23,186 bases of DNA from an uncultured Amylibacter sp. Its GTDB lineage: Bacteria > Pseudomonadota > Alphaproteobacteria > Rhodobacterales > Rhodobacteraceae. The stretch lies in NCBI GenBank assembly GCA_938001995.1, contig CALLAV010000196.1, forward strand, positions 1 to 23,186, read 5' to 3'. Below the pieces are notes generated by a model, which was not told the origin of the DNA, searched no databases, and saw nothing but the letters and a program-made list of their open reading frames with translations. Shown here piece after piece: positions 4,069 to 21,032 of the stretch (position 1 is the stretch's first letter; each line of letters begins with the position of its first letter). The translations under genes were made by a program, and so were the position numbers.

Positions 4069-4659
4069 CTAAGGCGTTGCGCAAGACCGCGCAAAGATTG
4101 TCACTCTTCGGTGGAGCGCATTTTCAGGGGCCAGCCCTGTAACCAAATTGTCCTCACCATCTGACAGTACTTCTTGAATACGCGATCCATCTTGGATGCG
4201 CTGACGCAGGTACTGTGCAACCACATTTGCACGTTTCATCCCCATCTCTTTGTTCAGATTTGAAGGGCCCGAGGCATCTGAATGCCCGACCAAACGCAGG
4301 CAAGCGGTGTTGAGCACACTTGTGTTGAGAATCCGCCCTAGCGTATTGAGCTTTTCGAGTGCTTGATCATCCAAACGATCACCACCTTTGCGGAAGAACA
4401 CATTGTTTTCGTTCAGTTCTTGCTGAGATACACTTAGATTTGAAGAAGTTTGAGCGACCGGCGTTGGTTCAGCCTCCTTGGCAGGTTTTACATAAATATC
4501 ATCTTGTGGGTCGCATCCTTCGGGCGCGATTCCATACTGTGCCAAAATATCCGCACAGACTTGCATTGCTGCGCTGGACTGGGCCTGTGCGAATTGAGGG
4601 GACGTCAAAAATAGCGCCATCAAAACCGTATAAATGACTCTGATCATTGGATTCCGCAT
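4069..4659 (-). CDS. Small OmpA-family periplasmic protein (first of two)
   Basis: The 196-residue protein has a signal peptide (basic start, hydrophobic 8-20, cleavage after about 'AQA' at 24-26), a short Cys-containing region (C35, C49), a polar linker, and a C-terminal OmpA-like peptidoglycan-binding domain at about 85-190. The domain has 'LVGHSDASG' with Asp128 and Arg143 fifteen residues later, the spacing of the diaminopimelate-binding Asp/Arg pair in OmpA, and a closing 'HRRVTIFARSC'. AGGAGG at 4666-4671 sits six bases before the ATG at 4659, so this start is preferred over an in-frame ATG at 4683. There is no beta-barrel domain and no lipobox. It diverges from the polysaccharide operon, suggesting an envelope-anchoring role there. 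Confidence 0.88.
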   Translation of the reverse strand: MRNPMIRVIYTVLMALFLTSPQFAQAQSSAAMQVCADILAQYGIAPEGCDPQDDIYVKPAKEAEPTPVAQTSSNLSVSQQELNENNVFFRKGGDRLDDQALEKLNTLGRILNTSVLNTACLRLVGHSDASGPSNLNKEMGMKRANVVAQYLRQRIQDGSRIQEVLSDGEDNLVTGLAPENALHRRVTIFARSCATP

Positions 4660-4811
4660 AGTGATCCTCCTGAACCCGAGCATTAGGGTAAGGCTCCTAA
4701 CAAAGGGTGAAGAACAAACAGGGAATTTTCAAAATTTTATGCGTCAATGTTTACGAATTTTTCTGATTCTCCGCGCAATGGTGCAGGCTACCGAACTCAA
4801 AGGGCCGAATT
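4660..4811. promoter_or_regulatory. Divergent intergenic region, OmpA-type gene / acyltransferase operon
   Basis: This 152-base gap separates two divergent genes and must hold promoters for both. It is AT-rich in its central part (about 4720-4765), with short A/T inverted segments around 'attttcaaaattttat'. AGGAGG for the minus-strand gene is at 4666-4671. An AGGG at 4801-4804 precedes the GTG start at 4812. I see no convincing -35/-10 pair or operator. Confidence 0.4.
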
Positions 4812-5972
4812 GTGCACACACCAGCGACGACTCCATCAGAAAACCGTCTGACTTGGCTTGATAGCTTGCGATTAACGGCGGGTGTTTCGATGGTTGGGTT
4901 GCATTCTACGTCCGATTCCATGGGTCAGCCATTTACGCAATACGATCAGGCAGAACGGGTGCTGCCGATGCTGCTACGCGCGGTGATATATACGGCGCGC
5001 ACGGAACTATTTCTGATCATTTCGATCTTTCTGCTGCTAATGGCATTGGACAAACGTCCCAAAACATACGGGGCAACAATTGCGGTTCAAGCCCGTCGAT
5101 TGTTAGTGCCGTTTCTATTTTGGACGGTGTTTTACGCCTTTTACAATCTGATCAAAGCTGGTGCTTTTGGGTACCAGGATGCAGTGTTTCAGGCATTGGC
5201 CTCACCGTTTGAATGGGTGGGGTATGTGCTGCTGGGTTCTGTGAAATACCACATGCACTTTATCCCCACTCTGTTTGGTCTGATCTTGATGTACCCACTG
5301 TTTATCATTGCAAAACGGTATCCAATTCTGGGTCTTTTGGTCTTTGTTTGTTTGCTAATCAAACGTGATTTAGACGCGTTTGTGTTTTCCCATTTCTGGG
5401 GGACAGAGGCACTGCCTTACCTTGTTAGAGGTGTTAAAATTGTGACCTACGCTGGCTATGGGCTTATAGCGGGTGCGTTTTTGGGGTTGTGGCAACAAAC
5501 GACGGCGCAATGGCGCGAACGCTTTGTGCCGCTCCTTCTGTTTTTTGCGGCGTTGCTTTTTACTATCAAACTTGTTGCGACTTGGAAGACAGTTGAAACG
5601 GGTAAATGGCCGTTTGATTACGCAGGTGGATACTACGCAGATTTTCTCATGCCCATCGTTTTATTCGCGGTCGCGCTGGCGCTTGGTCACCGTAATTGGC
5701 CTATGATCTTGACGCGGCTGGCGCCTTATAGTTTCGGGATTTACCTCTGCCATCCGATTTTTTTAGATCTGATAGAAATTTGGGTTAGCGGTGAAACTCT
5801 GTCCCCAATTGGGCAGGTGAGCGTGAAGATTATCGCCGCGATTGTTTTGACATCTGCCTTAGTTTGGATCCTGGAGCGGACTCGCGTTTTGGGCTGGACT
5901 GTGGGCCTCGGCCCATTACCAAATTTCGAAAATTCCGACAAAAAGACCAAAAGGGGTATGCGCGATGCTTGA
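4812..5972 (+). CDS. Acyltransferase family 3 membrane protein
   Basis: The 386-residue integral membrane protein has about ten helices and the acyltransferase-3 pattern: N-terminal 'RLTWLDSLRLTAGVSMVGLH' with the conserved Arg20 and His31, 'RTELFLIISIFLLLMAL', 'QARRLLVPFLFW' at about 92-103, and a C-terminal 'LAPYSFGIYLCHPIFLDL'. Family members transfer acetyl, succinyl or other acyl groups to sugars on extracytoplasmic polysaccharides. The GTG start at 4812 is needed to keep the conserved first motif, and AGGG lies seven bases upstream. Its stop overlaps the next gene by eight bases, implying coupled translation. In context it probably decorates the polymer made by the downstream GT2 synthase; the acyl group is unknown. 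Confidence 0.85.
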   Translation: MHTPATTPSENRLTWLDSLRLTAGVSMVGLHSTSDSMGQPFTQYDQAERVLPMLLRAVIYTARTELFLIISIFLLLMALDKRPKTYGATIAVQARRLLVPFLFWTVFYAFYNLIKAGAFGYQDAVFQALASPFEWVGYVLLGSVKYHMHFIPTLFGLILMYPLFIIAKRYPILGLLVFVCLLIKRDLDAFVFSHFWGTEALPYLVRGVKIVTYAGYGLIAGAFLGLWQQTTAQWRERFVPLLLFFAALLFTIKLVATWKTVETGKWPFDYAGGYYADFLMPIVLFAVALALGHRNWPMILTRLAPYSFGIYLCHPIFLDLIEIWVSGETLSPIGQVSVKIIAAIVLTSALVWILERTRVLGWTVGLGPLPNFENSDKKTKRGMRDA

Positions 5973-7407
5973 GTGTGAAATTTCCGAAGACCAAGGCATT
6001 GCGACCGTTACGCTAAAGAAACCAAGGTTTGGTTTTGGTGCGGGGCAGACACTAGAGGACGGGCTCAGTACCCTTGAGCAGCTTGACCCCAAAGGCATCA
6101 TTTTTGATGCCTCTGGACTAAAAAAAATGAGTCATGGGATGTTGGTTGGCTTGTTGGATGTGTTCATTCGGTTGGAACGAGCCCGGGCATTTCGCTCGTT
6201 TGCTTTGGCTTTGGCGTTGTGTTCTTTGCCCGAAAAAACCTTCGCACTTGCAAAAGCGCAAGGTTTTGACCGCATCATCCCTCTCTTTTCAAACATAAAA
6301 TCTGCGCGTGCCCATACAAGTTTTAAATCTATTCAGCTTCAAGGCGTTCCCAGCGTTGTTCTTTGCGCCAATCAAGGTACGCGACTTGCACCAATGACCA
6401 ATGAAACACCTGCGGCACTGCTCGACTTTTTGGGGCGCCCAATGCTTGGACGTGTTTTAGATCATGCTGGTAAGTTCGGATTGCGCCATTTTATCGTAAA
6501 CCCAGGTTTTTGCGAACGGCAAGTCAATGATTTTGCTCAAAAACAGACAGCTGCCTCTATCTTTTGCGTCAATGAATCATCTTGGCAGACCAAGCAATTT
6601 GATGATGTGGCAACTCTGGTTCGGTTGCACAGGGCACATGGCGGCTTTGGGCGAGACACGTTTGTTTTTCAATCAAATGTGCTGTCGGACGCGGATCTTG
6701 GGGATATGATGCAATTCCATCGTAAAACGGGTGCAGACGCGACCATTGCAGTGGGGCAAAATCGGCGCCCTTCGGCGTGTGATGGTGGCGATCAAAATAC
6801 GGATCACCTTGCTTCGGCGATCCTTTTGTCGCCGTGGGCCGCAGAAACGCTCGCAAAACAGAGTTACAAAATACGCGACACAAGGATAATTCCTGCGCTA
6901 AGAGCAGCACATTTGGATATTCAGTTGTTCGTGTCAGATCATTCCGCTGCAGCCATTAAATGTGGCGCGGATTATTTTGCTTGTCAGGCGGCTGTTTTGA
7001 AACACTGCGCTTTTGGTGTGAAACCCATTGGGGACGAAATCGCGCCTCAAACTTGGCTTGCCTATGGCAGTGAAGTGGACTCCAAAGTCGAAATTGGAGG
7101 CCCCTGTTTTATCGCAGAAAATGCGCGCGTCTCGCGGGGAACAGTTTTGCAAGGGACCAACGTGATTGGAGATCGCTCAATTGTGCATCGCAATGCAGTT
7201 CTTTCGAACAGTATCTTAATGCCAGACACGCAAGCTCATAAAAACAGTTTCGTCGATCATATTATCACGAGCGCAAAATGGTCCATCAATCACAGATTTG
7301 CCGACGGAAGTTTGCAGAATCGCGCAGTTCTTGACGGGATAAGCTCGGCAATGGAGGTGACGGAGACGCACCAAGACAGATTCCCAAAAATCGCAGAAAT
7401 TGCTTAG
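5965..7407 (+). CDS. STAS domain fused to degenerate sugar-nucleotidyltransferase with C-terminal beta-helix
   Basis: The 480-residue soluble protein has three parts. Residues 1-118 read as a STAS domain (anti-sigma-antagonist fold): 'GIIFDASGLKKMSHGMLVGLL' and a closing 'AKAQGFDRIIPLFSNIKSA'. The site next to the conserved Gly58, Ser in SpoIIAA-type proteins, is His57, with Ser56 before it. Residues 128-340 read as a GT-A nucleotidyltransferase: 'VVLCANQGTRLAPMTNETPAA', then 'FVFQSNVLSDADL'. The usual G-G-x-G-T-R-L...P-K-P is altered (Asn136, and Ala150 for Lys), and the metal-binding Gly-Asp is Ser237-Asn238. Residues 365-435 look like left-handed beta-helix hexad repeats. It may be a regulatory pseudoenzyme that senses a sugar nucleotide. 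It overlaps the acyltransferase gene by eight bases. Fold calls are good, lack of activity is inferred. Confidence 0.8.
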   Translation: MLECEISEDQGIATVTLKKPRFGFGAGQTLEDGLSTLEQLDPKGIIFDASGLKKMSHGMLVGLLDVFIRLERARAFRSFALALALCSLPEKTFALAKAQGFDRIIPLFSNIKSARAHTSFKSIQLQGVPSVVLCANQGTRLAPMTNETPAALLDFLGRPMLGRVLDHAGKFGLRHFIVNPGFCERQVNDFAQKQTAASIFCVNESSWQTKQFDDVATLVRLHRAHGGFGRDTFVFQSNVLSDADLGDMMQFHRKTGADATIAVGQNRRPSACDGGDQNTDHLASAILLSPWAAETLAKQSYKIRDTRIIPALRAAHLDIQLFVSDHSAAAIKCGADYFACQAAVLKHCAFGVKPIGDEIAPQTWLAYGSEVDSKVEIGGPCFIAENARVSRGTVLQGTNVIGDRSIVHRNAVLSNSILMPDTQAHKNSFVDHIITSAKWSINHRFADGSLQNRAVLDGISSAMEVTETHQDRFPKIAEIA

Positions 7408-7510: not shown

Positions 7511-9316
7511 ATGCAGCCATATTTCCATCGGTTTGAGGATCGCACTGCTCCGTTTTATGCGCCAATGTCTTCAAAACGGACCACCGCATGGCAGTTCTTG
7601 GCAGGCCTGACAATTGGCGTTTCTATTTGGTATTTATGGTGGCGATGGACTGCTTCTTTAAACCCTGACGCGATGATCTTTTCGGTTGTTGTCGCGTTGG
7701 CAGAAACACTCTTTTTTGTCGGTACGCTCTTCTTTTTCCATGATATTTGGCGTGAAAAAGACACACCTCAAAAACCACCCCCAAACTGTCGCTCTGCACT
7801 CGGTGGCGACTACGATAAGGGGTCAGTTACTGTGGACGTATTTGTCACCACTTTTGATGAAGAGCCAGATGTGGTTCGTCCAACGCTAGAAGCGGCTATA
7901 AACCTCAAAATTCCTGAAAATACGCGCGTCGCTGTATGGCTGCTAGATGACGGCAATCGATCAGAGTTTGCACTTTTGGCTGAGAACATGGGTGTTGGCT
8001 ACTTGCACAGGGATAACAATCGCGGGTTTAAGGCAGGGAACCTGAAGAATGCACTTATGCAAACATCCGGTGATTTCATCGCGATTTGCGATGCGGACAC
8101 GCGCGTGTTCCCCAATTTCCTTGAAAACACACTTGGGTATTTCCAAGATCCCAAAGTGGCTTGGGTGCAAACACCGCATTGGTTTTATGACATCCCTGAG
8201 GGGCAGACTTGGATTGAATGGGCTCGTCAAAAATTGCCGTCGAGTACGACCTTTTTACAAAAACCTATTGCGGCGATTGGGCAATTTTTGTCTGGGCAAA
8301 CCCATGTGGGTGTTGATCCAATGTTGTCAGAACCAGCCTTGTTTTTTGATGTTATTCAACGACGTCGCAACCGCAATGGCGCGTCGTTTTGTTGTGGCGC
8401 TGGGTCTATTCATCGTCGCGAAGCCCTGTTTCAATCAGCGCTGTCACAATACGGCGCGTTTTTGTCGAATGATCCTTCAAGATTTGCGCTGGCACAAGAG
8501 TTTGAACCGTTCAAATTTCACGTTTCAGAAGATATTTACACATCGATTCAATTGCATTCTAACACCGAAATTCAGTGGATATCTGTCTATCATCCCCAAG
8601 TAGAATGCCGCATGCTGTCCCCTTGGACAATAGAGGCCTGGGCTACACAAAAGTTGAAATATGCTGGTGGCACTTTTGACATCATGTTGCGTGATAATCC
8701 TGTTTTCCAAACAGGCATGCCGTGGCGGATAAAGCTTCATTATCTTGCAACTTTTTGGTCGTATTTGTCCGCTCTTTGGGTTCCAATTATGATGCTCGCG
8801 CCGATTTTTTCATTGTTCACAGGATGGGCACCTGTTCAGTCGTATTCTTTTGAGTTCTTCATGCACATCTTACCCGTTCTTGTGCTGAGCGAATTGGCCA
8901 TGGTGGTGGGTTGCAAAGGTCACAATGTAAACATCGGGCGCGTTATGGCGATCGGTGGATTGCCAATTACTTTACGCGCATTGTGGTTTGTTTTGCGGGG
9001 GCAAAAACCAAAGTTTCCCGCTACGCCGAAAACGCCAGTATTTACCGAAAACAAACTCGATCGTGTCATGCCAAACGTAGCTTTGCTTTTGCTGATGTTG
9101 GCGGGCGTTACCTACGGAATCTGGGCGTACGCCACCCACCAAGACGGGTATACGATGTCATTTCTGATCGTGAATCTATTTTGGATTGCATGGAATGCGA
9201 TAAGCCATCTGCGGGTGATTGCTGTTGCTGTTTGGCGCCCATCAGAACGCGACTTGCCCTTACTCAATATGCCAGTCCCAGACACACAGGATACCCTCAA
9301 AAATGCACCAATCTGA
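7511..9316 (+). CDS. Cellulose-synthase-like GT2 polysaccharide synthase
   Basis: The 601-residue protein is a processive family-2 glycosyltransferase of the BcsA/CrdS type. It has two N-terminal helices (about 27-46 and 55-76), a cytoplasmic GT-A domain, and several C-terminal helices (about 410-600). Visible motifs: Asp146-Asp147-Gly, 'NNRGFKAGNLKNAL' at 169-182, Asp194-Ala-Asp196, 'VQTPHWF' at 219-225, 'CCGAGSIHRREAL' at 294-306, the catalytic-base motif as Ser339-Glu-Asp341 in place of TED, and the acceptor motif as Q380-K-L-K-Y384 in place of QxxRW. No PilZ domain follows, so direct BcsA-style c-di-GMP control is not apparent. It probably polymerises and extrudes a UDP-sugar-derived beta-glycan. 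Product identity is unknown; the nearby GH16 gene hints at a beta-glucan. Confidence 0.88.
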   Translation: MQPYFHRFEDRTAPFYAPMSSKRTTAWQFLAGLTIGVSIWYLWWRWTASLNPDAMIFSVVVALAETLFFVGTLFFFHDIWREKDTPQKPPPNCRSALGGDYDKGSVTVDVFVTTFDEEPDVVRPTLEAAINLKIPENTRVAVWLLDDGNRSEFALLAENMGVGYLHRDNNRGFKAGNLKNALMQTSGDFIAICDADTRVFPNFLENTLGYFQDPKVAWVQTPHWFYDIPEGQTWIEWARQKLPSSTTFLQKPIAAIGQFLSGQTHVGVDPMLSEPALFFDVIQRRRNRNGASFCCGAGSIHRREALFQSALSQYGAFLSNDPSRFALAQEFEPFKFHVSEDIYTSIQLHSNTEIQWISVYHPQVECRMLSPWTIEAWATQKLKYAGGTFDIMLRDNPVFQTGMPWRIKLHYLATFWSYLSALWVPIMMLAPIFSLFTGWAPVQSYSFEFFMHILPVLVLSELAMVVGCKGHNVNIGRVMAIGGLPITLRALWFVLRGQKPKFPATPKTPVFTENKLDRVMPNVALLLLMLAGVTYGIWAYATHQDGYTMSFLIVNLFWIAWNAISHLRVIAVAVWRPSERDLPLLNMPVPDTQDTLKNAPI

Positions 9317-10619
9317 TGCGCCTGTCGCCAAAAACCGATCAAGCCTGATCTTTGTCCTTGGCCTTGTATGCGCTGCGATTTTTGCAGTCTCTTTGGATGG
9401 GGCAGGTCGTTTGGTGCTTTTGGGAAAGTCATCGAACTTGGATCCCGAGGCAGTTGCTTCAATCGCACCGATTGGACCAGTGGGATTGAAGGATGCGGAT
9501 GTTCATGCGGCCGAGGTGGCGTGGCGGTACTTTGCCAAAAACACGCGGGTAGAAACTGGATTGGTCGATTCAGTCGCGGGATTTCCGTCAGGAACGCTCT
9601 GGGACCAAGGAAGTTATCTCTTGGCTTTGTCGTCGGCTCACGCGTTAGATCTGGTGGAGGAGACCGAGTTTTCTGCGCGCGTGGACCAGTTTTTAGAGAC
9701 GTTGGGGCAGCTTCCATTGTTTGAAGGCAAGCTTCCCAACAAGGTTTATAATACACAAACGCTCCAAATGACGGATTACGAGAACACCTTTACCGACGTT
9801 GGGATTGGGTGGTCCGCCTTGGATATGGGCCGATTGCTTTCGGCTTTGCGTGTGTTGGAAAGAAGAGCACCAGAATATGGGGACAAAATCCGGACGGTTT
9901 TGGCGGGCTGGGACTTAAATGCTATGACCCATCAAGGGGAGCTGGTTGGCGCCGCACTCCAAGGAGATGAGGTGATTTATCCCCAAGAGGGTCGCGTCGG
10001 TTACGAACAATATGCGGCGCGAGCTTCAGCGCTTTGGGGCCTTGATGTGGTTCGTGCTATTTCGGCTGCGCGGATCATGGACTGGGAAGTCGTGTCAGGG
10101 CAAAACGTACCGATAGACTTACGTACATCGAGCGCCTTCCGCTCCATCACCCCAACACTCAGTGAACCCTATTTTCTTCAAGGGTTGGAGTTGGGGTTTG
10201 ACAGCGAAACCCGCCAACTAGCAGCGCAAGTTTACATGGCACAAGAATCGCGGTTTTCCCAAACGGGCACGCAAACAATGGTGTCCGAAGATCATGTGAA
10301 TCAAGCGCCGTATTTCCTCTATTCGTCGGTGCACAGCAACGGTGAACCATGGGCTGTGGTGTCAGAGGATGGGTCGTTTCACAATGACAAACGCACAGTG
10401 AGCCTAAAGGCGGTATTTGCTTGGGATGCTTTGTATGGTCGCGAATATACGACAACTTTGCGTGCGGATCTAGCGAGCTTAGCGAGTGAAGGCGGGTGGA
10501 TTGCCGGGCGGTATGAGCAAACGGGTGCGTTAAACGATGCCCTGACATTGAACACCAATGCAGTTGTGCTGGAAGCGATTCACTATAAGAAATTCGGCCC
10601 ACTCTGGCAGATCCGCTAG
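9303..10619 (+). CDS. DUF3131-family membrane-anchored periplasmic protein (copy 1)
   Basis: The 438-residue protein has one N-terminal membrane segment (about 13-31, signal anchor or signal peptide) and then a periplasmic DUF3131-type domain from about 65 to the end. It shares block after block with the protein at 15882-17579: 'TLWDQGSY' (98-105), 'LPNKVYNT', 'GWSALDMGR', 'PQEGRVGYEQYAA' (227-239) and a C-terminal 'NTNAVVLEAIHYK'. I infer an alpha-helical toroid like that of glucoamylase-type glycan-active enzymes; the conserved Asp101 and Glu229 would then be candidate catalytic residues. An upstream in-frame start at 9219 would overlap the GT2 gene by 98 bases, so the ATG at 9303, overlapping by 14, is preferred. 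Likely trims or binds the GT2 product. Confidence 0.82.
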   Translation: MHQSDAPVAKNRSSLIFVLGLVCAAIFAVSLDGAGRLVLLGKSSNLDPEAVASIAPIGPVGLKDADVHAAEVAWRYFAKNTRVETGLVDSVAGFPSGTLWDQGSYLLALSSAHALDLVEETEFSARVDQFLETLGQLPLFEGKLPNKVYNTQTLQMTDYENTFTDVGIGWSALDMGRLLSALRVLERRAPEYGDKIRTVLAGWDLNAMTHQGELVGAALQGDEVIYPQEGRVGYEQYAARASALWGLDVVRAISAARIMDWEVVSGQNVPIDLRTSSAFRSITPTLSEPYFLQGLELGFDSETRQLAAQVYMAQESRFSQTGTQTMVSEDHVNQAPYFLYSSVHSNGEPWAVVSEDGSFHNDKRTVSLKAVFAWDALYGREYTTTLRADLASLASEGGWIAGRYEQTGALNDALTLNTNAVVLEAIHYKKFGPLWQIR

Positions 10620-10639
10620 AGCAGCTTTTGCCAACTGTT

Positions 10640-11869
10640 TTAGGATTTTTCTTTCAGGAAATCATAAAGATTGATGTAACCGCCATCACACGGGGTTCCT
10701 GGTGAAGAGGTCGGGCATGACACTCCGCGCTCTTCTGTGGGGACATTTGGTTGGTTGGTCTGTGAGACAGTCTTCGGCTTGCGAACTGGTTGTGGTTTTT
10801 TCTTTACCATTGGTGGTTTTGTTTTGCGCGATGTTTGCTCATGTACTGCCATTCGGCGCTTCAACAGCACCATCAGATCGAAATCCAAAACACCGTTTGG
10901 CAATATTTTGACATCCGCCTGAAAGCGGCTGATCGCACGCCGCGTGCGTTGGCCAATTTTTGGCTCAAAGGGTGCTTTTAGATATCCAAGCGCCTGAAGC
11001 ATTTGTTGCGCGTTTTCCAGTTCGCCTTCTGGCAAAGTTCGCGTAAATTTTCGTTCCTGTTTACCATTCGATTTGGCGGACGTAACGGGCTGCGCCAAAC
11101 AGGTCCAATAGGGAACACCCGCATGGCGCCCCAACAGTTCAATCAATCCAACTTCGATCAAATTTCGAACGGCTTGGCTTTCGCTTTCCACGCGGTTGAT
11201 TTGAACCGAAAAACCCAAAGTGGCCAGATTGATTAGGCCCGATGCTGATGCACCAAACCCTTGCCCAACCACCACCATTGAATTTGCAACCGATGCGCCG
11301 GGTAAAACGCGACGCGAGGGAAATGCGACCAAATGCATGTCCACGCTGACCACAGATAACTTCCGGTACGGGCCGAATTTCGCCCCGGTCAGCTTACCTG
11401 AACCAGGCGTTAATGTTGCTGTCCCGTCGTCGTCGGTCACTTCTCGGTCGAGTTGGCTGATAGATCCACGAATGTAGAATTGTGGAACGACTTCGTCGCC
11501 ATTTTGTACTTCTACGTCGAGAAGTCCTCCAAATTTAATCAACGCTTGGTCCACAAAAACATATGTTTGCGATTTGCGGTTCATTTGCGAAATGGCATTG
11601 ATCAGCATGTCGTCAGCGCCAACTTTGACGTAAGACGTCTCATCTGGAATGTCGGACGAAGAAATCAAGGTTTGACCGCGGCGCGACTTTCCTAAAAGGC
11701 CATCCATACATTCCAATGCCGCACTAAAGGATGTGAAATTGCGCGCGGGCCGCGTGTCAGGTTGTGCGATGGACGGGGCGAGCAGCGGGTTTGGCCCAAC
11801 GCAACCAACGCAGAGCGCTGTAACGCTCGACAAAAGGATCGTTCGCAGAGGGAAAAAAGCGATACGCAT
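10640..11869 (-). CDS. CsgG-like outer-membrane lipoprotein with peptidoglycan-binding domain
   Basis: The 409-residue protein starts with a lipoprotein signal ending in 'LCVGC' (lipidated Cys23; the -3 residue is unusual). Residues about 80-258 follow the CsgG/HfaB pattern: a strand ending 'FYIRGSISQLDREV', a roughly 35-residue Gly/Thr-rich hairpin, 'LSVVSVDMHLVAFPSRRVL', a second hairpin rich in Gly/Ala/Val at 191-226, and a closing helix with 'NLIEVGLIELLG...YWTCL'. In curli CsgG the two hairpins form the outer-membrane pore. Residues about 284-338 are a PG_binding_1 domain ('LQALGYLKAPFEPKIGQRTRRAISRFQ' pattern), followed by a Lys/Pro-rich linker and a short Cys-containing tail. It lies tail to tail with the DUF3131 gene, 20 bases apart. 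It could be the exit pore for the polysaccharide (inference). Confidence 0.8.
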   Translation of the reverse strand: MRIAFFPLRTILLSSVTALCVGCVGPNPLLAPSIAQPDTRPARNFTSFSAALECMDGLLGKSRRGQTLISSSDIPDETSYVKVGADDMLINAISQMNRKSQTYVFVDQALIKFGGLLDVEVQNGDEVVPQFYIRGSISQLDREVTDDDGTATLTPGSGKLTGAKFGPYRKLSVVSVDMHLVAFPSRRVLPGASVANSMVVVGQGFGASASGLINLATLGFSVQINRVESESQAVRNLIEVGLIELLGRHAGVPYWTCLAQPVTSAKSNGKQERKFTRTLPEGELENAQQMLQALGYLKAPFEPKIGQRTRRAISRFQADVKILPNGVLDFDLMVLLKRRMAVHEQTSRKTKPPMVKKKPQPVRKPKTVSQTNQPNVPTEERGVSCPTSSPGTPCDGGYINLYDFLKEKS

Positions 11870-12064
11870 AGGGCACCCATTTCGAATTCAGTTGATCCAA
11901 AATTAGCCAAAGGGTTTTAACATCTACTAAAATCAGCAGCGTTTATGACATTGTTTTTAATTAAAATTATCTTGTTCTAGCCGTCTGCGCGTAAGCAAAC
12001 GTTTACAATTTTCATGCATTTTCAATTTGAACGATTGTGGCTAAAATGCGGAGGAGCGTTTGAA
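11870..12064. promoter_or_regulatory. Divergent intergenic region, CsgG-like / OmpA-caspase genes
   Basis: A 195-base divergent region. It includes a perfect 12-bp A/T palindrome at 11955-11966, a near-match to a CtrA box (TTAA, seven bases, TAAA) at 11917-11931, and a GTAAgcAAACGTTTAC partial palindrome around 11992-12006. GGAGGAG at 12050-12056 is the ribosome-binding site of the plus-strand gene. No sigma-70 promoter stands out with confidence. Confidence 0.4.
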
Positions 12065-12679: not shown

Positions 12680-12681
12680 CC

Positions 12682-13431: not shown

Positions 13432-14191
13432 ACAGGGTTTGCATTGGGGTGAATTTGACCTGTCCAAACCACGCTTCACTCGATTGTTCCGGCTCAGTTT
13501 TACCTGCCCATTGGCGTATCGATGGATCTGCGGCCCATACATTTGCGAAAAGCAACGACGGAGTGATGGGCAGATTGGTTTCAGCTTTCTTGGCCGAATA
13601 GATTAGCTCGTCTTCCACATACCAATTGATCCGATCGGGTAGCCATTCAAAGGCATAGAGCCGAGGTCGCTTGGCGGCATCAAAAGGCAGATCAATAAAC
13701 TTGTTCGTCAGAACACCATCGCTGAACCATGCGATATGTATCTGTTTCGTGTTTTTGCCGAGAAATTCAATATCAATTTCGTCGTGTTTGGTTCCATAGA
13801 AAGGACCGGTATAGGTGAAGAAGCCTGTAACAAATCCTGATCCTTTGGCAGGTTTGATCAGACTCTCATATCGACCATAGATCGTGGGGATTTTTCTGCG
13901 AATGGAGCCACCGATAAATCGGTTTTTCGACTGGGACTGAACTTTGCTTGGTGTGACCGTTAGGGTCAAACCCGCAGCCTCTTCATCTCCTCCGTTGTCG
14001 AAAACAACATTCTGCTTTCGCCAATCCGTGTCAAAATGAGGGTGATCAAAATCGTATTCTGCAATTTCCCACTTTTTTAGGTCGGATTTCTTGAACGCAT
14101 CAATGAAGGGAAAGTCTACAGGATCGGCTGTTCCAACACTTGATGCCATAGATAAAATGGAAATAGAAAGAACCACACCCTTACCCACCAT
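13358..14191 (-). CDS. Secreted GH16 beta-glucanase
   Basis: The 277-residue protein has a signal peptide (about 1-22) followed by a GH16 beta-jelly-roll domain. The catalytic signature E138-I-D140-I-E142 in 'HDEIDIEFLG' is complete, giving nucleophile and acid/base for retaining hydrolysis of beta-1,3 or beta-1,3/1,4 glucans. Other supporting blocks are 'YGRYESLIKPAKGSGFVTGFFTY' and 'YAFEWLPDRINWYVEDELIY'. An in-frame TTG lies at 14206, but the ATG at 14191 is placed seven to eight bases after a G-run and is preferred. A CtrA-like box lies about 100 bases upstream. A glucanase beside a GT2 synthase commonly serves in length control or release of the polymer, which suggests the product is a beta-glucan. 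Confidence 0.88.
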   Translation of the reverse strand: MVGKGVVLSISILSMASSVGTADPVDFPFIDAFKKSDLKKWEIAEYDFDHPHFDTDWRKQNVVFDNGGDEEAAGLTLTVTPSKVQSQSKNRFIGGSIRRKIPTIYGRYESLIKPAKGSGFVTGFFTYTGPFYGTKHDEIDIEFLGKNTKQIHIAWFSDGVLTNKFIDLPFDAAKRPRLYAFEWLPDRINWYVEDELIYSAKKAETNLPITPSLLFANVWAADPSIRQWAGKTEPEQSSEAWFGQVKFTPMQTLFSAEKQAALTKIETTAIVDPASLE

Positions 14192-14293
14192 CGCTTTGCC
14201 CCCCAAAGCACCACATCTTCGCGGAGTATCCGCAAAATTGAGATAAATTTTATGGGAAGCTAGAGAGTGAAGCCACGCTCAGCAATCGTTGAG

Positions 14294-14308: not shown

Positions 14309-14309
14309 C

Positions 14310-14341: not shown

Positions 14342-14364
14342 CGAGTATTTAAAGATTGTGGTTC

Positions 14365-15882
14365 TTAACGATCCAAAACAACAGACTTGAAGTATTGGGA
14401 CAAGAGCACGAATTCTTCTTCGGTCATCACTATCTCTTTTTCTATTTGAGACGTTTTTAGTTGCTGCTGTTTTAGAACGTCATTTTCAAGCTCTTGCAAA
14501 ATCTCAGCAACCACATTTTCTTGGAAAACAGGTTGCTGTTCTTGCGGTTGGGGTCGTTCAACACTTGTTGCAATAGCTTGGTTGCCCTGTGGTTCCCCTT
14601 CGCCGAGTTGGATTAGCATAAGTGCTGTTTTTGCATCTAGCCCTATCTCGGTCATAAGATATTGCAGGCGTTTCGCCGTTTCCATTGCAGGATCTACAAC
14701 CCTATCTGATTGCTCGGCAGCTTGCATCACTTTCTCGGTTTGCTGCACTTGAGGCGTTGGATTTAAGGTTGTTTGGGCCAAACCAGTTTGTGTTTGATGC
14801 TGCACAGGTTGGCTCAGGCGTTGCAAATCGGCTTGAATCTGTGCTGAAGCGCGTTGCAAAGCTGCGATTTGATCTGAAACTGGTTGTTGCGTTGCGTTTT
14901 GCGGCATCAACTGAGCGATCGAACCAGCCATCCCTGCCTGTTGCGATGTCTGTGCTGGCTGTGCAGGTACGTTTTGCTGCTCTGCTTGGCTTGTTTGGTT
15001 TCGGTCCATCAATAATTCTCGAAGGACTTTGAGTTCCGATTTGACCTCGTCTACTTCTGATTGGTTGCTTGAAGCAATTGTTGGTTGAACCTGTATCTGT
15101 AGCGGTTGGGGCGCTTGCTGGAATTGAGTCTGACCCAGGTTGTTTTGCCCAGTTGGAAAGTTCTGCGGCTGTGGCATGGGAGATTGCCAAGTGGATGCTT
15201 GCGTTACCGATGCATCAGAACCGACAGCATTTGGTACGGGCCACCCACGTGGTAGAATCGAATAGTCCTGACGCGCTGCAACCCATCTTAAATATGCGCT
15301 AACAGCCAAAAAACCTGAGAGTGAAATGCGGTCTTTTTCGTTGTCGCCGCGCCGCACAATCAGGTCACCTCCTGAGGACAGAAGCAATTCCAATTGTGTT
15401 TCGAGCGGTTGCAAGATCCTTTCCGGAACCTCGATCTCGGACACGCCTTCGGAGACAAAAAACCGATCTCCGGTTTGGACATCGTCAATTTTCAATTGCA
15501 TTTGCCCACGACTGTTCAAAATCACTGAAAGAGCGCCTTTGCGTCCCATACAAGAATAGGTGCGCGGTCGGCAAATAACCTCAAAAACGTCCGTATCAAG
15601 ACGGGGCGTTGGGGCAAACCGTGCATATCCATCGGGGTCAAATCTAAAGTAGACCCCCTGAACCAAGCCTTCTTGAAAAGTAGGCCACCCAAATGCACCG
15701 CGCAATGATTGCTGTGCTTCCCTGGCGCCAATAGCAAAAGGGATGGATGTGTCAATTATCGCATTTTCAGATGCAAACGGTGCTTGATCCACTATGTTTG
15801 GATCTGTTTGCTGCGTTTGTGCCTGCGTCATTGTGCCAAAGGATACGGCGATTGCTGTAAGAATGGGTGTAAGGTTTCGCAT
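14365..15882 (-). CDS. Gln-rich secreted protein of unknown function
   Basis: I do not recognise this 505-residue protein. It starts with a signal peptide (about 1-21, ending 'TQAQ'). Residues about 40-215 look like a folded domain with a possible disulfide (two Cys in 'VICRPRTYSCMGRKG'), beta-rich 'LSVILNSRGQMQLKIDD' and 'LELLLSSGGDLIVRRGD', and an 'AYLRWVAARQDYSILPRGWP' helix. Residues about 220-430 are low-complexity, rich in Gln, Pro, Ser and Thr, with short helical stretches around 275-295 and 330-355 that could form coiled coils. The C-terminus (about 455-505) is charged and helical. The ATG shares one base with the stop of the DUF3131 gene (TAATG), so the two are translationally coupled and probably work together in the periplasm or at the cell surface. 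Confidence 0.8.
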   Translation of the reverse strand: MRNLTPILTAIAVSFGTMTQAQTQQTDPNIVDQAPFASENAIIDTSIPFAIGAREAQQSLRGAFGWPTFQEGLVQGVYFRFDPDGYARFAPTPRLDTDVFEVICRPRTYSCMGRKGALSVILNSRGQMQLKIDDVQTGDRFFVSEGVSEIEVPERILQPLETQLELLLSSGGDLIVRRGDNEKDRISLSGFLAVSAYLRWVAARQDYSILPRGWPVPNAVGSDASVTQASTWQSPMPQPQNFPTGQNNLGQTQFQQAPQPLQIQVQPTIASSNQSEVDEVKSELKVLRELLMDRNQTSQAEQQNVPAQPAQTSQQAGMAGSIAQLMPQNATQQPVSDQIAALQRASAQIQADLQRLSQPVQHQTQTGLAQTTLNPTPQVQQTEKVMQAAEQSDRVVDPAMETAKRLQYLMTEIGLDAKTALMLIQLGEGEPQGNQAIATSVERPQPQEQQPVFQENVVAEILQELENDVLKQQQLKTSQIEKEIVMTEEEFVLLSQYFKSVVLDR

Positions 15883-17579
15883 TAGAAATCCGCCTGTGTT
15901 TGTACTGAATGGCGTAACGCCGGAAGCCAGTCGCTTTCTTGAGGAGGGTCTGGATATTGGCGGCGTTCGCGAACATCTTGATCACGAAAGGCCGTATACC
16001 AAACTTCGGTGTCGCCCGTGTAAGGCGTTAGAATTGTGCCCTGCACTTTGTGCAAAAGCGATGTGAGGATGATACCGTTGTTATTGGCCGTGTAGATTGC
16101 AACGCGCCCTTGGCCACGTTCGTACAGACCTTCGTACATGCCATTTTCTGGATCGTACAATTCGATGATCGCGTCATAGAGCACGTCTGTGTATTCAGTT
16201 TCCCAAAGCGCCCAAAGACCTAGGGCCGCCTTTGCCGCCACTGCCGCGTGGTCTGGCACGTAATCACCGCGTGGGGTAACGGTATTCCACGGATATCCAT
16301 CCGAAAAAATCGTATCATAGGTAAAGTAGGGTGGCCCTTTTACATTGTGTTCTGAACGTGCTGTCATAAAGCCGGTGCGACGCCAGCGATTTTCTTGAAC
16401 TTGGTAAATACGGTCAGCAAATTCAGCGCGCCATCCATCAGAATGCAACCACTCTGGAGATGTGTCATCGTGGGGCAAGTCGAAACCAAGTTCTAGGCCG
16501 TCCTGCAAATAAGACTCTGTCACCACATAGTTTTGGCTGTGAAACACGCGTGGATCACGTCCATCGTAAGGAACCTGAATTCCAAAAATCGAAGCCGTCA
16601 GAAAAGGTTCGGCGCGGTGCGCAAGGAGCGGTTTAAACCCCCAAAGCGCAAATCCTTTTGCGGCATATTCCTCGTACCCTAACCGACCTTCTTGTGCATA
16701 AACTGTTTCACCTGTTTCTTTGTCGACATATGCGCCAAACAACAGGCCTTCTTTGTCTACAGTATTCGCAAAATCCCATTTCAGTAGGACCGAGTCTATG
16801 GTGTTCGCCAAATGTGGGTAACGGTTTTTAAGAATGCGCATCCAGACCAAAAACCGGCCGATATCTAAGGCTGAAAAACCGATTTCTCCTGGCTTATTGG
16901 TATAGTCCACCTTCGCGCCAGTTTTGGTATGGTACACTTTGTTTGGCATTTCCTTGCGGAACAATTCCAGGCTTTTGATCGTTGTCAAAAGTTGCGTCAT
17001 GCGTTTGTCGAATTCTGGCTTTTCGATCAAACACAACTCGTAAGCTGCCGTTGCCCCCGCCATATAAGACGCCGTGTCCCACAAAGTCGTCGACGGATAA
17101 TTACCAACGGAATTTGCAAGACCCGTTGTTTCTTGAGTGAATTTTTCAAAGTAATGCCACGCAACCTTTGCCGCCCGCATTTCGCGTTCATTCAAAAAGC
17201 CACGTCGGTCACGGTACTGCCGAACATATTCGTTACGCACAGTGTACCCAGTGGGTTGTTCCAAACCGCGGTCCAGTTTTTCAAAATAGTCTTCGTTCAT
17301 TTCGCACATCCGTGGCGGTTTTTCCCGCATTGGCAAACCGTGTTTCAGGCTGGTTGTGACGCTGGGTAGGTTGCCACGCATGAGGGCAGGAATTTGATCC
17401 AAATCACTGCCGGCGATGATTGGAATGATCTCTTCTTCTTGTGCAAGAAAGATAGTTTTAGCGGTACTGCCGATGGCATAAATAGTGCCTGAAAGCACCA
17501 CGATAGAGGCGATTAGAACACCCGTTCCAAAGCCGCCGCCGCGTCGCGATTTACCATTGTGTGACTGATTCTGCTGCAT
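15882..17579 (-). CDS. DUF3131-family membrane-anchored periplasmic protein (copy 2)
   Basis: The 565-residue protein has a basic Gly-rich N-terminus, one membrane helix (about 19-38) and a periplasmic DUF3131-type domain from about 130. It is a clear paralogue of the protein at 9303-10619: 'TLWDTASY' (165-172), 'MPNKVYHT', 'IGFSALDIGRFL', 'AQEGRLGYEEYAAKGFALWG' (295-314) and 'NNNGIILTSLLHK'. It is longer, with an extra N-terminal linker and a C-terminal tail of about 45 residues. The ATG at 17579 is preceded by GAGAGGA (17590-17596); in-frame starts at 17603 and 17660 are alternatives. As in the other copy, the conserved Asp168 and Glu297 are candidates for glycan chemistry. Coupled to the Gln-rich gene by a TAATG overlap. 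Confidence 0.82.
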   Translation of the reverse strand: MQQNQSHNGKSRRGGGFGTGVLIASIVVLSGTIYAIGSTAKTIFLAQEEEIIPIIAGSDLDQIPALMRGNLPSVTTSLKHGLPMREKPPRMCEMNEDYFEKLDRGLEQPTGYTVRNEYVRQYRDRRGFLNEREMRAAKVAWHYFEKFTQETTGLANSVGNYPSTTLWDTASYMAGATAAYELCLIEKPEFDKRMTQLLTTIKSLELFRKEMPNKVYHTKTGAKVDYTNKPGEIGFSALDIGRFLVWMRILKNRYPHLANTIDSVLLKWDFANTVDKEGLLFGAYVDKETGETVYAQEGRLGYEEYAAKGFALWGFKPLLAHRAEPFLTASIFGIQVPYDGRDPRVFHSQNYVVTESYLQDGLELGFDLPHDDTSPEWLHSDGWRAEFADRIYQVQENRWRRTGFMTARSEHNVKGPPYFTYDTIFSDGYPWNTVTPRGDYVPDHAAVAAKAALGLWALWETEYTDVLYDAIIELYDPENGMYEGLYERGQGRVAIYTANNNGIILTSLLHKVQGTILTPYTGDTEVWYTAFRDQDVRERRQYPDPPQESDWLPALRHSVQTQADF

Positions 17580-17722
17580 ACGAATTTCGTCCTCTCGTTG
17601 CATGCACTTAATCCGATCAGGGTTAACAAAGAGCGAAGGCAGGAGAATTAACCGCACCAATCATTTGTTAACCGAAAGGGCCTAGAGATTGAGACAAACG
17701 AGCAGTCAGGAAAGTAGAACCC
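17580..17722. promoter_or_regulatory. Divergent intergenic region with three TTAAC motifs
   Basis: A 143-base region between the DUF3131 operon (-) and the ABC/HlyD operon (+). It carries TTAAC at 17623-17627 and two direct TTAACC copies at 17648-17653 and 17668-17673, spaced exactly 20 bases (two helical turns). These resemble CtrA half-sites but none forms a TTAA-N7-TTAA pair. AGGAAAG at 17708-17714 is the ribosome-binding site for the ABC gene, and GAGAGGA (minus, 17590-17596) that for the DUF3131 gene. Confidence 0.4.
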
Positions 17723-19759
17723 ATGTCGCAAAACGCGCAACCCACAACGGCGGACACTTCTAATAACCACCAAATGATGAGTGATCCGACGGGTTTGGAC
17801 ACACAAGATATTTCGATGGATCCCGTCCAAATGATCGACCGATCTGCCCCGACTTGGGCGCAGCCGTTATCGTGGTTTTTTGCGAGTGGTTCTGCAATTT
17901 GCATTCTCAGCATCTGTGTGATGACAGTATTTTTTGCAGACCTGTCCGTAAAAGTGCAGCAGCCGTTAGTGGCGATTCTTTTGGCGGGTCTCGGTGTGAT
18001 TCCTGTTCTCGGAATCCTCATTTTCGAATTTTCTCATGCCAAAGCACTTGCGGGGTATCGAATCTTTCGGGAGCGAACAGAAGTCGTGGCACAAGCGTTC
18101 GTTGCCCTTGTTGCCTTTGTGTTGCTCACGTTCATTCATCCCGTACTTGGGCTGGCGATCCCCATAGGAACCGTGTTGATTTTTGGGATTAGTCGCCTGT
18201 TGAATCGGTTTTCGCGGCGTGAACCGATGTGGGATTTCCTACCCTCCGAGGCGATTTCTGTCTTTGCAGGTCGCGACAATATTGGGAAAAATTTGACGCT
18301 TAATGCACCTTTAGCACCTGCGCTGCAAAACAGTTATATTCGTGCGGCTGCGTGGTTCGCATTGGTATTGTCTTTAGGGTGTAGCAGCTGGCTTGCGGCA
18401 AGTGAGATCGTGGCGCCTGCTGCAACCGTTGCGGTTGCGTTGATTACGTTTTGGAGTGTGCACGCATTAGGGCGTTTCATTATACAAGGTGGGTCGAAAA
18501 ATCCGTTGGAAGTTGGCCTTGCGGCCAATGTGACTCGTGTTCGCGTCGCACCCGATCCCGAATCTGAAGTTCATACAAGCGGCCTACGCGTCGAAGGTTT
18601 GACAGTATTGAACGGAGATAAAGCACCAATTATTTCGGATGTTCGATTTCAAATAGAACCCGGGCAAGTTTTGGGCTTGATTGGCCCACCAGGCGCTGGG
18701 AAAACCACGTTAATGCAAGCGCTTATCAGCCCTTATGATCTGTCAAATCTTGACGTCAGAGGTGCTGTGCGATTGGGAGAAACAGATCTGTGGGAAAGGT
18801 CAAATCGACCTTCGAATGTTCCTGCTTTGATGTTTCCTTCTGTTCCTTTGATTTTGCCAACGTCGGGCGCAAACAACTTGTCGTTCTTTGAAACAGGATC
18901 CTTGTTGGAACAAGGTAAACGCATTTTGGAACAACTGGTATTTGCAACTGATAGTGTAGACAAAATTTGCTTGGCGCCTGATGCAACCAAACTTTCCGCT
19001 TCCGAACAAAAAGCACTGGCTTTTGCGCGTGGATTTTTGATGTCACCGCATCTCTACCTGTTGGATCGGCCTGAAGATGGCGTTTCTGAAAAGCTGATGG
19101 GTGCTATGGTTGCGCGTATGCGGCAAGAATGTCGTGCGGGCCGCAGTTTTATTATTGTAACAGAAAACCGTGCGATGCTGGATATCTGTGACAAGCTTAT
19201 GATGTTGCACGACGGGCGTGTGGTCGACTTTGGTCCAGCGCATGAAATAAAGGCACGGCAGTCGTCGGGTTGGCAGAGGTTCGTTGGCGCGCGTAGTTTG
19301 GAAACGGAAGAGAATTTAGAGGCATGGGTGCGCTCGCACTTTAAGCGTGATGGGGACGAGATAAACCGCCGAAATGCTTGTGTGGTTGCGGCGGAACTGT
19401 TGGCCTTTTCGTGTCAGAACGTTGAACCGCTTAGCCATCAATCCATCAGTTTGGAATTCAAACATTTTGAAGGGCATTGCCTGATTAAGTTGATCGATCG
19501 CGATCTGCCCGTGTCTTCTGGTGTTTTGTCCCGAGCGGAAACAGAAGCTGCAGAAGTGGGCGGTGCTGGGCGATTGTCACCTTTAGCGGCGGTCTTCAAG
19601 TTATGTGCGACGGTGGATGCAACAGTGGAACAAGACCACCGTGTGATTCTAGCAAAACTTGACACCTATGATCCGCGCAAAACGGGTGGCAAACCTCCTG
19701 CAAACGTAGTGCAACCAGGCGACCAATCAGGAGCAATAGACCATGCGAATAAAGCGTGA
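17723..19759 (+). CDS. Type-I-secretion-like ABC protein with degenerate ATPase and extra C-terminal domain
   Basis: The 678-residue protein has a polar N-terminal tail (1-45), about six membrane helices (50-250) resembling the PrtD-type exporter core, and an ABC domain (about 287-515). Walker A is intact, G321-PPGAGKTT329. The other catalytic elements are not: the Q-loop position is Ser373 in 'MFPSVP', the signature is L424-SASEQ, Walker B reads 'LYLLDRP' with Arg449 where the catalytic Glu belongs, and the H-loop His is Glu481 in 'IIVTEN'. ATP binding looks possible, hydrolysis doubtful. Residues about 530-650 form an extra domain whose order of elements (helix 'CVVAAELLAFSCQN', strand 'SISLEFKHF', 'CLIKLIDRD', then 'GGAGRLSPLAAVFKLCATVD') recalls RsbW-like HATPases; that call is tentative. 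It overlaps the adaptor gene by 17 bases. Confidence 0.8.
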   Translation: MSQNAQPTTADTSNNHQMMSDPTGLDTQDISMDPVQMIDRSAPTWAQPLSWFFASGSAICILSICVMTVFFADLSVKVQQPLVAILLAGLGVIPVLGILIFEFSHAKALAGYRIFRERTEVVAQAFVALVAFVLLTFIHPVLGLAIPIGTVLIFGISRLLNRFSRREPMWDFLPSEAISVFAGRDNIGKNLTLNAPLAPALQNSYIRAAAWFALVLSLGCSSWLAASEIVAPAATVAVALITFWSVHALGRFIIQGGSKNPLEVGLAANVTRVRVAPDPESEVHTSGLRVEGLTVLNGDKAPIISDVRFQIEPGQVLGLIGPPGAGKTTLMQALISPYDLSNLDVRGAVRLGETDLWERSNRPSNVPALMFPSVPLILPTSGANNLSFFETGSLLEQGKRILEQLVFATDSVDKICLAPDATKLSASEQKALAFARGFLMSPHLYLLDRPEDGVSEKLMGAMVARMRQECRAGRSFIIVTENRAMLDICDKLMMLHDGRVVDFGPAHEIKARQSSGWQRFVGARSLETEENLEAWVRSHFKRDGDEINRRNACVVAAELLAFSCQNVEPLSHQSISLEFKHFEGHCLIKLIDRDLPVSSGVLSRAETEAAEVGGAGRLSPLAAVFKLCATVDATVEQDHRVILAKLDTYDPRKTGGKPPANVVQPGDQSGAIDHANKA

Positions 19760-21032
19760 TCCCACGCCCAACGCGCGCCTTCGTTTGCAGCCTATTTTAT
19801 GGGTTACATGGGCGGGTGTGTGTGTCTTGGCTCTATGGTGTGCAGGGTTTTATCTGTCGGGTGTCCTTCAAGTATCCCAATCCCAAAGCTTTGTTGGGAC
19901 ACTGAGACCAAACCAAACACCTTTGAAATTAAAATTACCAGCGGGTGTGCCGTTAAAGTCCATGCTCGTCCAAGCAGGAGAGAAGGTGCGTGCTGGTCAA
20001 ACGGTCGCAGTTTTGGACCAGGCTGCAATGCGCGCAGAACTGGATCACATTGAGCGAAGCATCGCTGTGTCGCATGTTTTGCGCGGTTGCCTTTTGAACC
20101 CTTCTGAGGCCGCCGCCGAAACGTTATCCGAAAACGAAACGCAAAGATTGGCGTCAGACGAGCATGCTGAGCTGCAGGTTCTGATAAAAGCTGCGCAAGC
20201 GGATTGTGCGTCGGCTCTTCGCGCAGACACTTTGAAAAAGGTGCGGTTGGAGCGGGGTTTGGAACTCTTGCAGGAGAGGCTTATTTTGGTGAACCAAAAG
20301 CTGGCAATGGTTCTCGGCGTAAATGCTGACAAAGTGAAAAGAGGTGTTCATCCAGTATTGCGTGCCCACGCAAGTGTTTCGGTGGCCATGGAGCGCAATG
20401 AACTTTTGCAAAAATTACAAGCCGTGAAACATGAGTTGGATGCTTTGCGCGTTTCACAAGACCAAGCGCGTTTGGCGCGCGTGGCCAATTTGTCCAAAGA
20501 CGTTGCTGTGAATTTAAAACATCAGGCAGTTTTGAAAACCTACCTTGAAAATCCGCGTTTGACCGTGCCTGAAAAAGGTATGATCGGCAGGGTACGCCCT
20601 GTTCCTGCTGGGACCCAATTTGAGGAAGACCAAACAATCCTTGAAGTTCATAGCGAAGCGGAAGCGCAATACATGGCCAATCTCCGTGTGCCACTCGCTC
20701 AGGTTGATGCGATGCCTGTTGGAACCGAAGTGCATGTATCGCTGGCTGGTTTCACAAAACCTGTGCCAAAACTGAAAGGTGTGATTGACCATTGGTTTGA
20801 AGGTGATAGCGAAACGGGTGTTCATTTCGCCATGGCCCGAATTCGCCTTACCGATGAAAGCCAAAAGGCTTTGTCCAATCCTAAAAACGGAATCGCGTTG
20901 CGCGGCACGTCTACTGCCTCTGTTATTCGGGCGGAGTTGGAACCAGTGTCGCTAAGAGCCACATTGGAAAATTCGGTCGCGCGCAAAACTGGCTGGGCAA
21001 GGACGCTTTTCGCAAGTCTAGGTTCAGGTTAA
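19743..21032 (+). CDS. HlyD-type membrane fusion/adaptor protein
   Basis: The 429-residue protein has a short cytoplasmic start, one membrane helix (about 18-40), the first half of a lipoyl/biotinyl domain ('LPAGVPLKSMLVQAGEKVRAGQTVAVLD', 65-92 region), a long helical hairpin of about 93-270, the second lipoyl half ('PEKGMIGRVRPVPAGTQFEEDQTILEV', near 277-303) and a C-terminal beta-barrel region. This is the periplasmic adaptor design of type I secretion and related exporters, bridging the inner-membrane ABC protein to the outer membrane. AGGAG at 19729-19733 lies nine bases before the ATG, inside the ABC gene. Its partner has a damaged ATPase, so the pair may serve a structural role rather than classical protein export. 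Ends four bases from the convergent kdsD gene. Confidence 0.85.
   Translation: MRIKRDPTPNARLRLQPILWVTWAGVCVLALWCAGFYLSGVLQVSQSQSFVGTLRPNQTPLKLKLPAGVPLKSMLVQAGEKVRAGQTVAVLDQAAMRAELDHIERSIAVSHVLRGCLLNPSEAAAETLSENETQRLASDEHAELQVLIKAAQADCASALRADTLKKVRLERGLELLQERLILVNQKLAMVLGVNADKVKRGVHPVLRAHASVSVAMERNELLQKLQAVKHELDALRVSQDQARLARVANLSKDVAVNLKHQAVLKTYLENPRLTVPEKGMIGRVRPVPAGTQFEEDQTILEVHSEAEAQYMANLRVPLAQVDAMPVGTEVHVSLAGFTKPVPKLKGVIDHWFEGDSETGVHFAMARIRLTDESQKALSNPKNGIALRGTSTASVIRAELEPVSLRATLENSVARKTGWARTLFASLGSG

Follow-up and report, generated by a model that had tools for sequence, protein, structure and literature searches.

A GT2-DUF3131 gene island of Amylibacter, a likely type II form of a widespread synthase-dependent polysaccharide system

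The window analysed in this work, a stretch of 23,186 nucleotides from an uncultured Amylibacter sp., is the whole of contig C196 of a draft genome (G000; 2.7 Mb, 72% complete). At positions 4069-21032 it contains an island of open reading frames (ORFs) which the initial annotation had put forward as an undescribed machinery for polysaccharide synthesis, modification and export; all 13 ORFs listed there are present and were confirmed as real. The island likely represents the type II form of a synthase-dependent polysaccharide system that is widespread and has no described function; we name this system GT2-DUF3131. Matches in Pfam back the assignment of the two OmpA proteins, the acyltransferase, the nucleotidyltransferase, the glycosyltransferase GT2, the two DUF3131 proteins, the peptidoglycan-binding domain, the caspase, the glycosidase GH16 and the ABC protein; neither the Gln-rich nor the HlyD-like protein matches a Pfam family at E 0.01.

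The synthase gene lies in a group on the forward strand. It is preceded by a membrane acyltransferase of the Acyl_transf_3 family (AcT, 4812..5972; 109.3 bits) and by STASNT (5965..7407), in which a STAS-like N-terminus is fused to a nucleotidyltransferase with a left-handed helix (NTP_transferase, 33.6 bits). GT2 itself (7511..9316) is a cellulose-synthase-like glycosyltransferase without a PilZ domain and with QxxKY in place of QxxRW, and it is followed by D3131b (9219..10619; DUF3131, 429.2 bits), a DUF3131 protein with an N-terminal hydrophobic segment as the probable membrane anchor. The mechanically assigned start of D3131b at 9219 is a TTG, and by eye the ATG at 9303, which overlaps the GT2 stop, appears likelier. 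Next, on the reverse strand, lies the gene of a CsgG-like lipoprotein with a C-terminal peptidoglycan-binding domain (10640..11869), assigned from a predicted model and a fold match. It is followed on the forward strand by a short OmpA-domain protein (OmpA2, 12014..12679; 52.6 bits), which often adjoins the caspase and CsgG-like genes, and by a secreted caspase-like protein (Casp, 12670..13431; 101.3 bits) with GHG and DACR motifs, both of which were matched by pattern in 5/6 homologues (the exception is in genome G086). Three genes on the reverse strand encode GH16 (13358..14206; 105.5 bits) with the EIDIEF active-site motif, an optional member found in 6/80 of the DUF3131 loci described below, a secreted Gln-rich protein (GlnR, 14365..15882; 14.1% Q), and D3131a (15882..17660), a membrane-anchored periplasmic DUF3131 protein with a predicted (alpha/alpha)6 fold of the SGL clan. 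The remaining forward-strand genes encode ABC (17723..19759; ABC_tran, 50.9 bits), a type-I-secretion-like half transporter with a conserved, catalytically degenerate ATPase domain, and a HlyD/MFP-like periplasmic adaptor (19743..21032), whose NCBIfam scores for RND_mfp (31.7 bits) and type_I_hlyD (22.6 bits) are both below cut-off. The pairs acyltransferase/STASNT, GT2/D3131b, OmpA2/caspase, GlnR/D3131a and ABC/HlyD abut or overlap. At the left edge, a second short OmpA-domain protein (OmpA1, 4069..4683, reverse strand; 33.1 bits) is encoded divergently from the synthase operon; it occurs in 13/39 GT2 loci and 14/80 DUF3131 loci.

The genes of the island form one conserved system. One genome (G112) possesses all 13 families in the same order and orientation as in the window, and three others (G086, G198, G269) possess all 13 in rearranged form. 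Co-occurrence was assessed in an order sample of 244 genomes and in a family sample of 198 genomes from 197 genera, some genomes being common to both. In the order sample (GT2 at E <= 1e-60, D3131a at E <= 1e-50, CsgG-like and ABC by profile), GT2 was found in 20 genomes, D3131a in 19, CsgG-like in six and ABC in nine; the D3131a query also catches D3131b at this threshold, the best match having at least 49% identity in the 18 shared genomes. GT2 is present in 18/19 D3131a genomes, the exception being G282, and D3131a in 18/20 GT2 genomes. In all six CsgG-like genomes, GT2 lies no more than 4.3 kb from the CsgG-like gene on the same contig, and all nine ABC genomes have GT2, together with D3131a within 0.3 kb of ABC. 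The family sample yielded GT2 in 16 genomes, D3131a in 18, CsgG-like in eight and ABC in 11, with D3131a present in 16/16 GT2 genomes and 11/11 ABC genomes; its two genomes with D3131a and no GT2 call (G139 and G160) are draft assemblies of roughly 470 and 460 contigs, and in one of them GT2 is cut by a contig end. Six of the eight CsgG-like genomes have GT2, a seventh (G139) has the truncated GT2, and the eighth (G008) has none. Fisher tests on the co-occurrence take no account of kinship among the genomes. D3131a and GT2 lie about 710 kb and 210 kb apart on the same contig in G381 and G298, respectively, and on different contigs in G120, G311, G072 and G197; since both are nonetheless present in these six genomes, their co-occurrence amounts to more than linkage. 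Independent occurrence of the sub-operons, which the initial annotation had named as the outcome that would speak against a single machine, was thus looked for across these genomes and not seen. In G282, a 148-residue piece of D3131a (C19:49023-49466; 89% identity) has no accompanying GT2 match, perhaps owing to loss of the locus or to a contig edge.

Comparison of 39 loci around GT2 and of 80 loci around DUF3131 (the best 80 of at least 559 confirmed relatives, taken from named genomes with 10-kb flanks) revealed two main classes. Type I comprises SpoIIE-STAS-RsbW, D3131a, the acyltransferase, GT2, D3131b and a small secreted protein, often joined by an esterase as well as a barrel-like protein. 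The window belongs to type II, which comprises the acyltransferase, STASNT, GT2 and D3131b, as well as GlnR-D3131a, mostly divergent from ABC-HlyD, with the CsgG-like protein, OmpA2, caspase and GH16 as optional members. Among the 80 DUF3131 loci, 53 contain GlnR and are of type II (ABC in 48, HlyD in 43, GT2 within the 10-kb flanks in 29, CsgG-like in five, barrel in none), 26 are of type I (GT2 in 26, barrel in 18, ABC and CsgG-like in none), and one (L191) falls outside both. The N-terminal domain of GlnR is common to the type I barrel protein. The 53 include 11 Amylibacter-type loci that carry caspase-OmpA2, separate STAS and RsbW, D3131a, GlnR, ABC and HlyD, with the acyltransferase in 10/11, and their gene content suggests that they are intermediate between the two classes; in two such genomes (G120, G311) a second locus holds the CsgG-like gene close to GT2. 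The GT2 tree places the window in a group of 15 type II sequences with support of 100/100; the Amylibacter sequences and those of G057 and G001 diverge outside this group.

Standalone STAS proteins retain the DSS motif, which we take to be a phosphorylatable Ser site, in 21/21 cases (17 by pattern, 4 by eye), whereas in the fused STAS domains the Ser is absent, by eye, from all 15 readable cases (one of which, in G076, has Thr; one further row is gapped), and the window island has no SpoIIE or RsbW match. Partner switching would therefore be a trait of type I and of the Amylibacter intermediates, and the form present in the window seems to have lost it. A likeness of the C-terminus of the ABC protein to RsbW, which looked likely by eye, received an hhalign probability of 5% and was dismissed.

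D3131a is the most conserved protein of the island. It is 81-84% identical to its copies in several genera, in which the island neighbours are about 25-65% identical, and such conservation suggests an unusual constraint for a periplasmic enzyme. Its predicted structure exhibits the (alpha/alpha)6 fold of the SGL clan (GH144, GH162, GH189, GH192-194), whose families named there act on beta-1,2-glucan according to the available passages of PMC12102758. Among 47 DUF3131 proteins, E390 is present in 47/47, F446 in 46/47 and Y513 in 46/47; they are candidate counterparts of E239, F286 and Y367 of XcSGL by order and rough spacing alone. None of the 47 matches an SGL-type Pfam family up to E 10, and a single-sequence search of the PDB with D3131a gave best matches of E 0.52 and 0.97 only. 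From the predicted fold, we therefore place DUF3131 in the beta-1,2-glucanase clan and propose that it resembles enzymes of beta-1,2-glucan metabolism. DUF3131 proteins stand on their own, encoded in the same locus as a cellulose-like GT2, whereas its counterpart in cyclic-glucan synthases, 17% identical, is a domain of the synthase. One of the 47 proteins (from G358; probably L102 11483-13732, else 9964-11556) also matches a GDSL lipase family; such an activity could serve to remove acyl groups from the polymer.

Two nucleotide-dependent enzymes of the island carry substitutions in their motifs. ABC scores 77.4 bits with the NCBIfam model of PrtD and 43.7 bits with that of HlyB, and reaches neither cut-off (510 and 725, respectively). 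The initial annotation regarded this protein as damaged; however, in 17/17 homologues the GK[ST] of Walker A is kept and the catalytic Glu after the Walker B Asp is, by eye, replaced, so that local decay can be ruled out and the loss is a conserved feature. The switch His is also replaced in 14/17 (by eye), the window included. The ATPase probably binds ATP without hydrolysing it efficiently, as judged from these motifs. In the nucleotidyltransferase of STASNT, the GTR motif is kept in the window, and the Lys of the PK motif and the GD motif are lost; the Lys is lost in 6/16 nucleotidyltransferases (window, G195, G197, G298, G112, G381) and kept in 10/16, and the Asp of the GD motif is also lost in the window, G195, G112 and G381.

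On the basis of these data, we suggest that the island most likely makes, trims and decorates a cell-surface sugar polymer. By analogy with its family, GT2 would polymerise a beta-linked glucan from a UDP-sugar and extrude it through the inner membrane, and the acyltransferase would add acyl groups on the periplasmic side; to this extent the acylated beta-glucan of the initial annotation is plausible. The ABC-HlyD pair and GlnR may form the trans-periplasmic part, and the CsgG-like lipoprotein with its OmpA and caspase-like partners, an optional module, may anchor the polymer or aid its exit at the outer membrane and peptidoglycan. The nature of the polymer, the order of the steps and the exit are what we infer here from gene content, conservation, co-occurrence, motifs and predicted folds.

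Several observations weigh against this reading. No polymer has been observed, and the linkage suggested by GH16 differs from that suggested by the SGL-type fold. With its degenerate catalytic motifs, the window's nucleotidyltransferase appears inactive, and the ABC proteins of G112, G298 and G160 have a His at the switch place and may keep that residue. Two GT2 genomes of the order sample (G385, G389) are without D3131a, and parts of the system are missing or fragmented in G139, G160 and G282. The CsgG-like gene and GT2 lie on different contigs in G001, and G008 holds a distant CsgG-OmpA-caspase cluster and no GT2. Finally, the CsgG-like protein occurs in only 5/53 type II loci, and by a hand tally both this protein and the barrel protein are missing from 19/35 genomes checked (D3131a being present in 17 of the 19).

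The last two observations leave the exit unexplained in many genomes. With 5/53 type II loci and 6/244 genomes of the order sample, the CsgG-like protein can be ruled out as a universal exit; no outer-membrane candidate is common to the whole family, and the "new kind of exit path" of the initial annotation is not supported. The window protein itself has no Pfam CsgG match at E 0.01; among its homologues, P0120 exceeds the cut-off of 20.8 bits (31.7), P0045 (15.3) and P0109 (10.6) remain below it, and P0096 and P0062 have no match. Its predicted model exhibits the CsgG fold with long transmembrane hairpin strands, according to the fold match by VIA-align. Unlike curli CsgG and holdfast HfaB, it adds a peptidoglycan-binding domain, and its genetic partner in the island is a polysaccharide synthase, with no curli partner identified by Pfam among the scanned window proteins. 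The barrel-like protein of type I shares none of the 39 GT2 loci and 80 DUF3131 loci with it, and a full-length version was found in 5/35 genomes, all of type I and without the CsgG-like protein; however, the CsgG-like and barrel labels follow the GT2 clades, and the pattern of alternative exits is thus confounded by descent.

The strongest competing explanation, to which we would give almost an even chance, is that the CsgG-like, OmpA and caspase proteins, in the manner of HfaB in the Caulobacter holdfast, secrete or anchor a surface protein to which the polymer is held, and that the polymer itself leaves by way of HlyD and a TolC-type protein encoded elsewhere, or through an unlinked porin. 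The available passages of PMC6707917 describe HfaB as a CsgG-like component of the holdfast anchor that presumably secretes HfaA and HfaD. A weak NCBIfam match to HfaB (E 0.0016, 17.7 bits versus a cut-off of 300) is consistent with such a role, as is the optional occurrence of the CsgG-like protein in type II, in which ABC and HlyD are near universal. The cluster in G008 (L133, 2805-7910) consists of distant CsgG-like, OmpA, OmpA and caspase genes in a genome for which the family sample gave neither a GT2 nor a D3131a match; it indicates that the module can exist independently, and in G001 the CsgG-like gene is also separate from GT2. On the other hand, homologues of HfaA and HfaD were not noticed among the island genes, no profile search for either having been made, and in Amylibacter the CsgG-like gene lies one gene from GT2 and far from caspase-OmpA, which ties it most closely to the synthase locus.

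It is possible, albeit less probable, that the island encodes a conventional system for cellulose or mixed-linkage beta-glucan, accompanied by unusual accessory genes, and that DUF3131 merely replaces BcsZ. The best PDB relatives of GT2 are chains of the cellulose synthase BcsA (E 2.4e-42), and GH16 with its EIDIEF motif would also suit an ordinary beta-glucan. Bcs cellulose systems likewise combine a GT2 core with a periplasmic (alpha/alpha)6 glycosidase, BcsZ of family GH8. However, GT2 reaches only 224.3 bits with the NCBIfam equivalog CelA (cut-off 699.1), and QxxKY occupies the QxxRW place in 39/39 GT2 proteins (QxxKYA in 38, and QRLKY with a subsequent Gly in one; in two proteins a QxxRW string stands at another place). 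A pattern of HVSED plus a hydrophobic and then an aromatic residue matched 37/39. As the initial annotation had stated, neither BcsB nor BcsC was found in the window; no Pfam match to PilZ or BcsB was obtained at E 0.01 among 20 window proteins, the rest of the genome not having been searched for BcsB. In addition, DUF3131 would belong to another clan than BcsZ, one whose named families act on beta-1,2-glucan (PMC12102758, available passages). The mixed-linkage alternative would have a parallel in the bgsBA operon for 1,3;1,4-beta-glucan in Sinorhizobium/Rhizobium, in which a GT2 of the CESA_CelA-like group is also coupled with a HlyD-like protein; the available passages of PMC9495663 describe two genes and mention no DUF3131, acyltransferase, ABC or CsgG-like gene. 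The HlyD-like partner in the island is weakly scored.

We find it unlikely that the product is a periplasmic glucan of the osmoregulated type (OPG) that is not exported, closed or trimmed by DUF3131 and succinylated by the acyltransferase in the manner of OpgC, with the ABC and CsgG-like genes serving other purposes. AcT is present in 64/80 DUF3131 loci, its relatives are annotated as OpgC or acyltransferase, and we propose for it an OpgC-like role; but the barrel-like protein in 18/26 type I loci and the co-occurrence of trans-envelope parts with the synthase in type II mean that both classes carry components which a periplasmic glucan does not need. That unrelated neighbouring operons were joined by chance is highly improbable and largely refuted, as the D3131a and GT2 blocks, although unlinked in six genomes, co-occur even there, and the full synteny in another genus and the co-occurrence counts led us to abandon this explanation.

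It is tempting to extend the reading of the island as a GT2-DUF3131 polysaccharide system into a specific, if rather improbable, scheme. The QxxKY GT2 would make an acylated beta-1,2-linked glucan, shaped by periplasmic DUF3131 transglycosylases related to the cyclisation domains of cyclic-glucan synthesis and brought to the surface via an ABC-HlyD conduit whose ATPase would bind ATP without hydrolysis, in some species together with a CsgG-type lipoprotein pore clamped to peptidoglycan. Such a class of exported glucan and such a polysaccharide exit would, to our knowledge, be unlike any known system.

The claim that the locus is undescribed requires qualification, as a type I relative, with three DUF3131 genes and OpgC, has been noted as part of "block 3b" of Klebsiella pneumoniae, without a function in the available passages of PMC12974863; these mention no STAS-nucleotidyltransferase, GlnR, ABC-HlyD, CsgG-like, OmpA or caspase genes. 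In the literature, DUF3131 was named but given no function in the passages found, PF11329 was not found, and no paper was found uniting a CsgG-like protein, polysaccharide export and the outer membrane, or linking PelC and CsgG with an outer membrane lipoprotein and a polysaccharide. Papers that join OpgC, cellulose synthase, SpoIIE and exopolysaccharide deal, by title and opening of the abstract, with subjects other than this locus. As judged from the predicted models, the system appears to be a polysaccharide machinery of the synthase-dependent kind, and the glucan-processing-type fold of its core is newly recognised. The placement in the SGL clan and the near-constant company of GT2 in the samples searched turn the at least 559 relatives, which include members on enterobacterial plasmids, into a testable polysaccharide family. 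The outer parts swapped between two classes on one core represent a natural experiment on how a glucan may cross the envelope, and the conserved ATPase without the catalytic Glu raises the question of the role of an ABC exporter that lacks normal hydrolysis.

Type I was found on two enterobacterial plasmids with three DUF3131 genes and OpgC. These loci, on a Salmonella plasmid typed as conjugative (L024) and a Pantoea plasmid (L025), also carry hybrid kinase/response regulators, with a globin in L024. A third, unlinked DUF3131 gene is present in the window's own genome (L119 on contig C207, 6126-7445, forward strand), as well as in G120 (L124, 8482-9849) and G311; there is no GT2 match within L119 or L124. 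Type II loci sometimes contain, between STASNT and GT2, a secreted protein of about 250 residues that starts with EDRFW (L055 2953-3738, L088 16476-17234 and six others). This family occurs in 8/39 GT2 loci and 17/80 DUF3131 loci, and it gave no match to PDB sequences up to E 5 and, for two members searched, no significant Pfam match. The island is flanked on the left by genes of the aldolase, epimerase, SDR and EamA families and on the right by a SIS-CBS protein (KdsD-like), and a small protein encoded near the contig end (22057-22704, reverse strand) has a partial Pfam match to the sialyltransferase family GT29 (38.6 bits).
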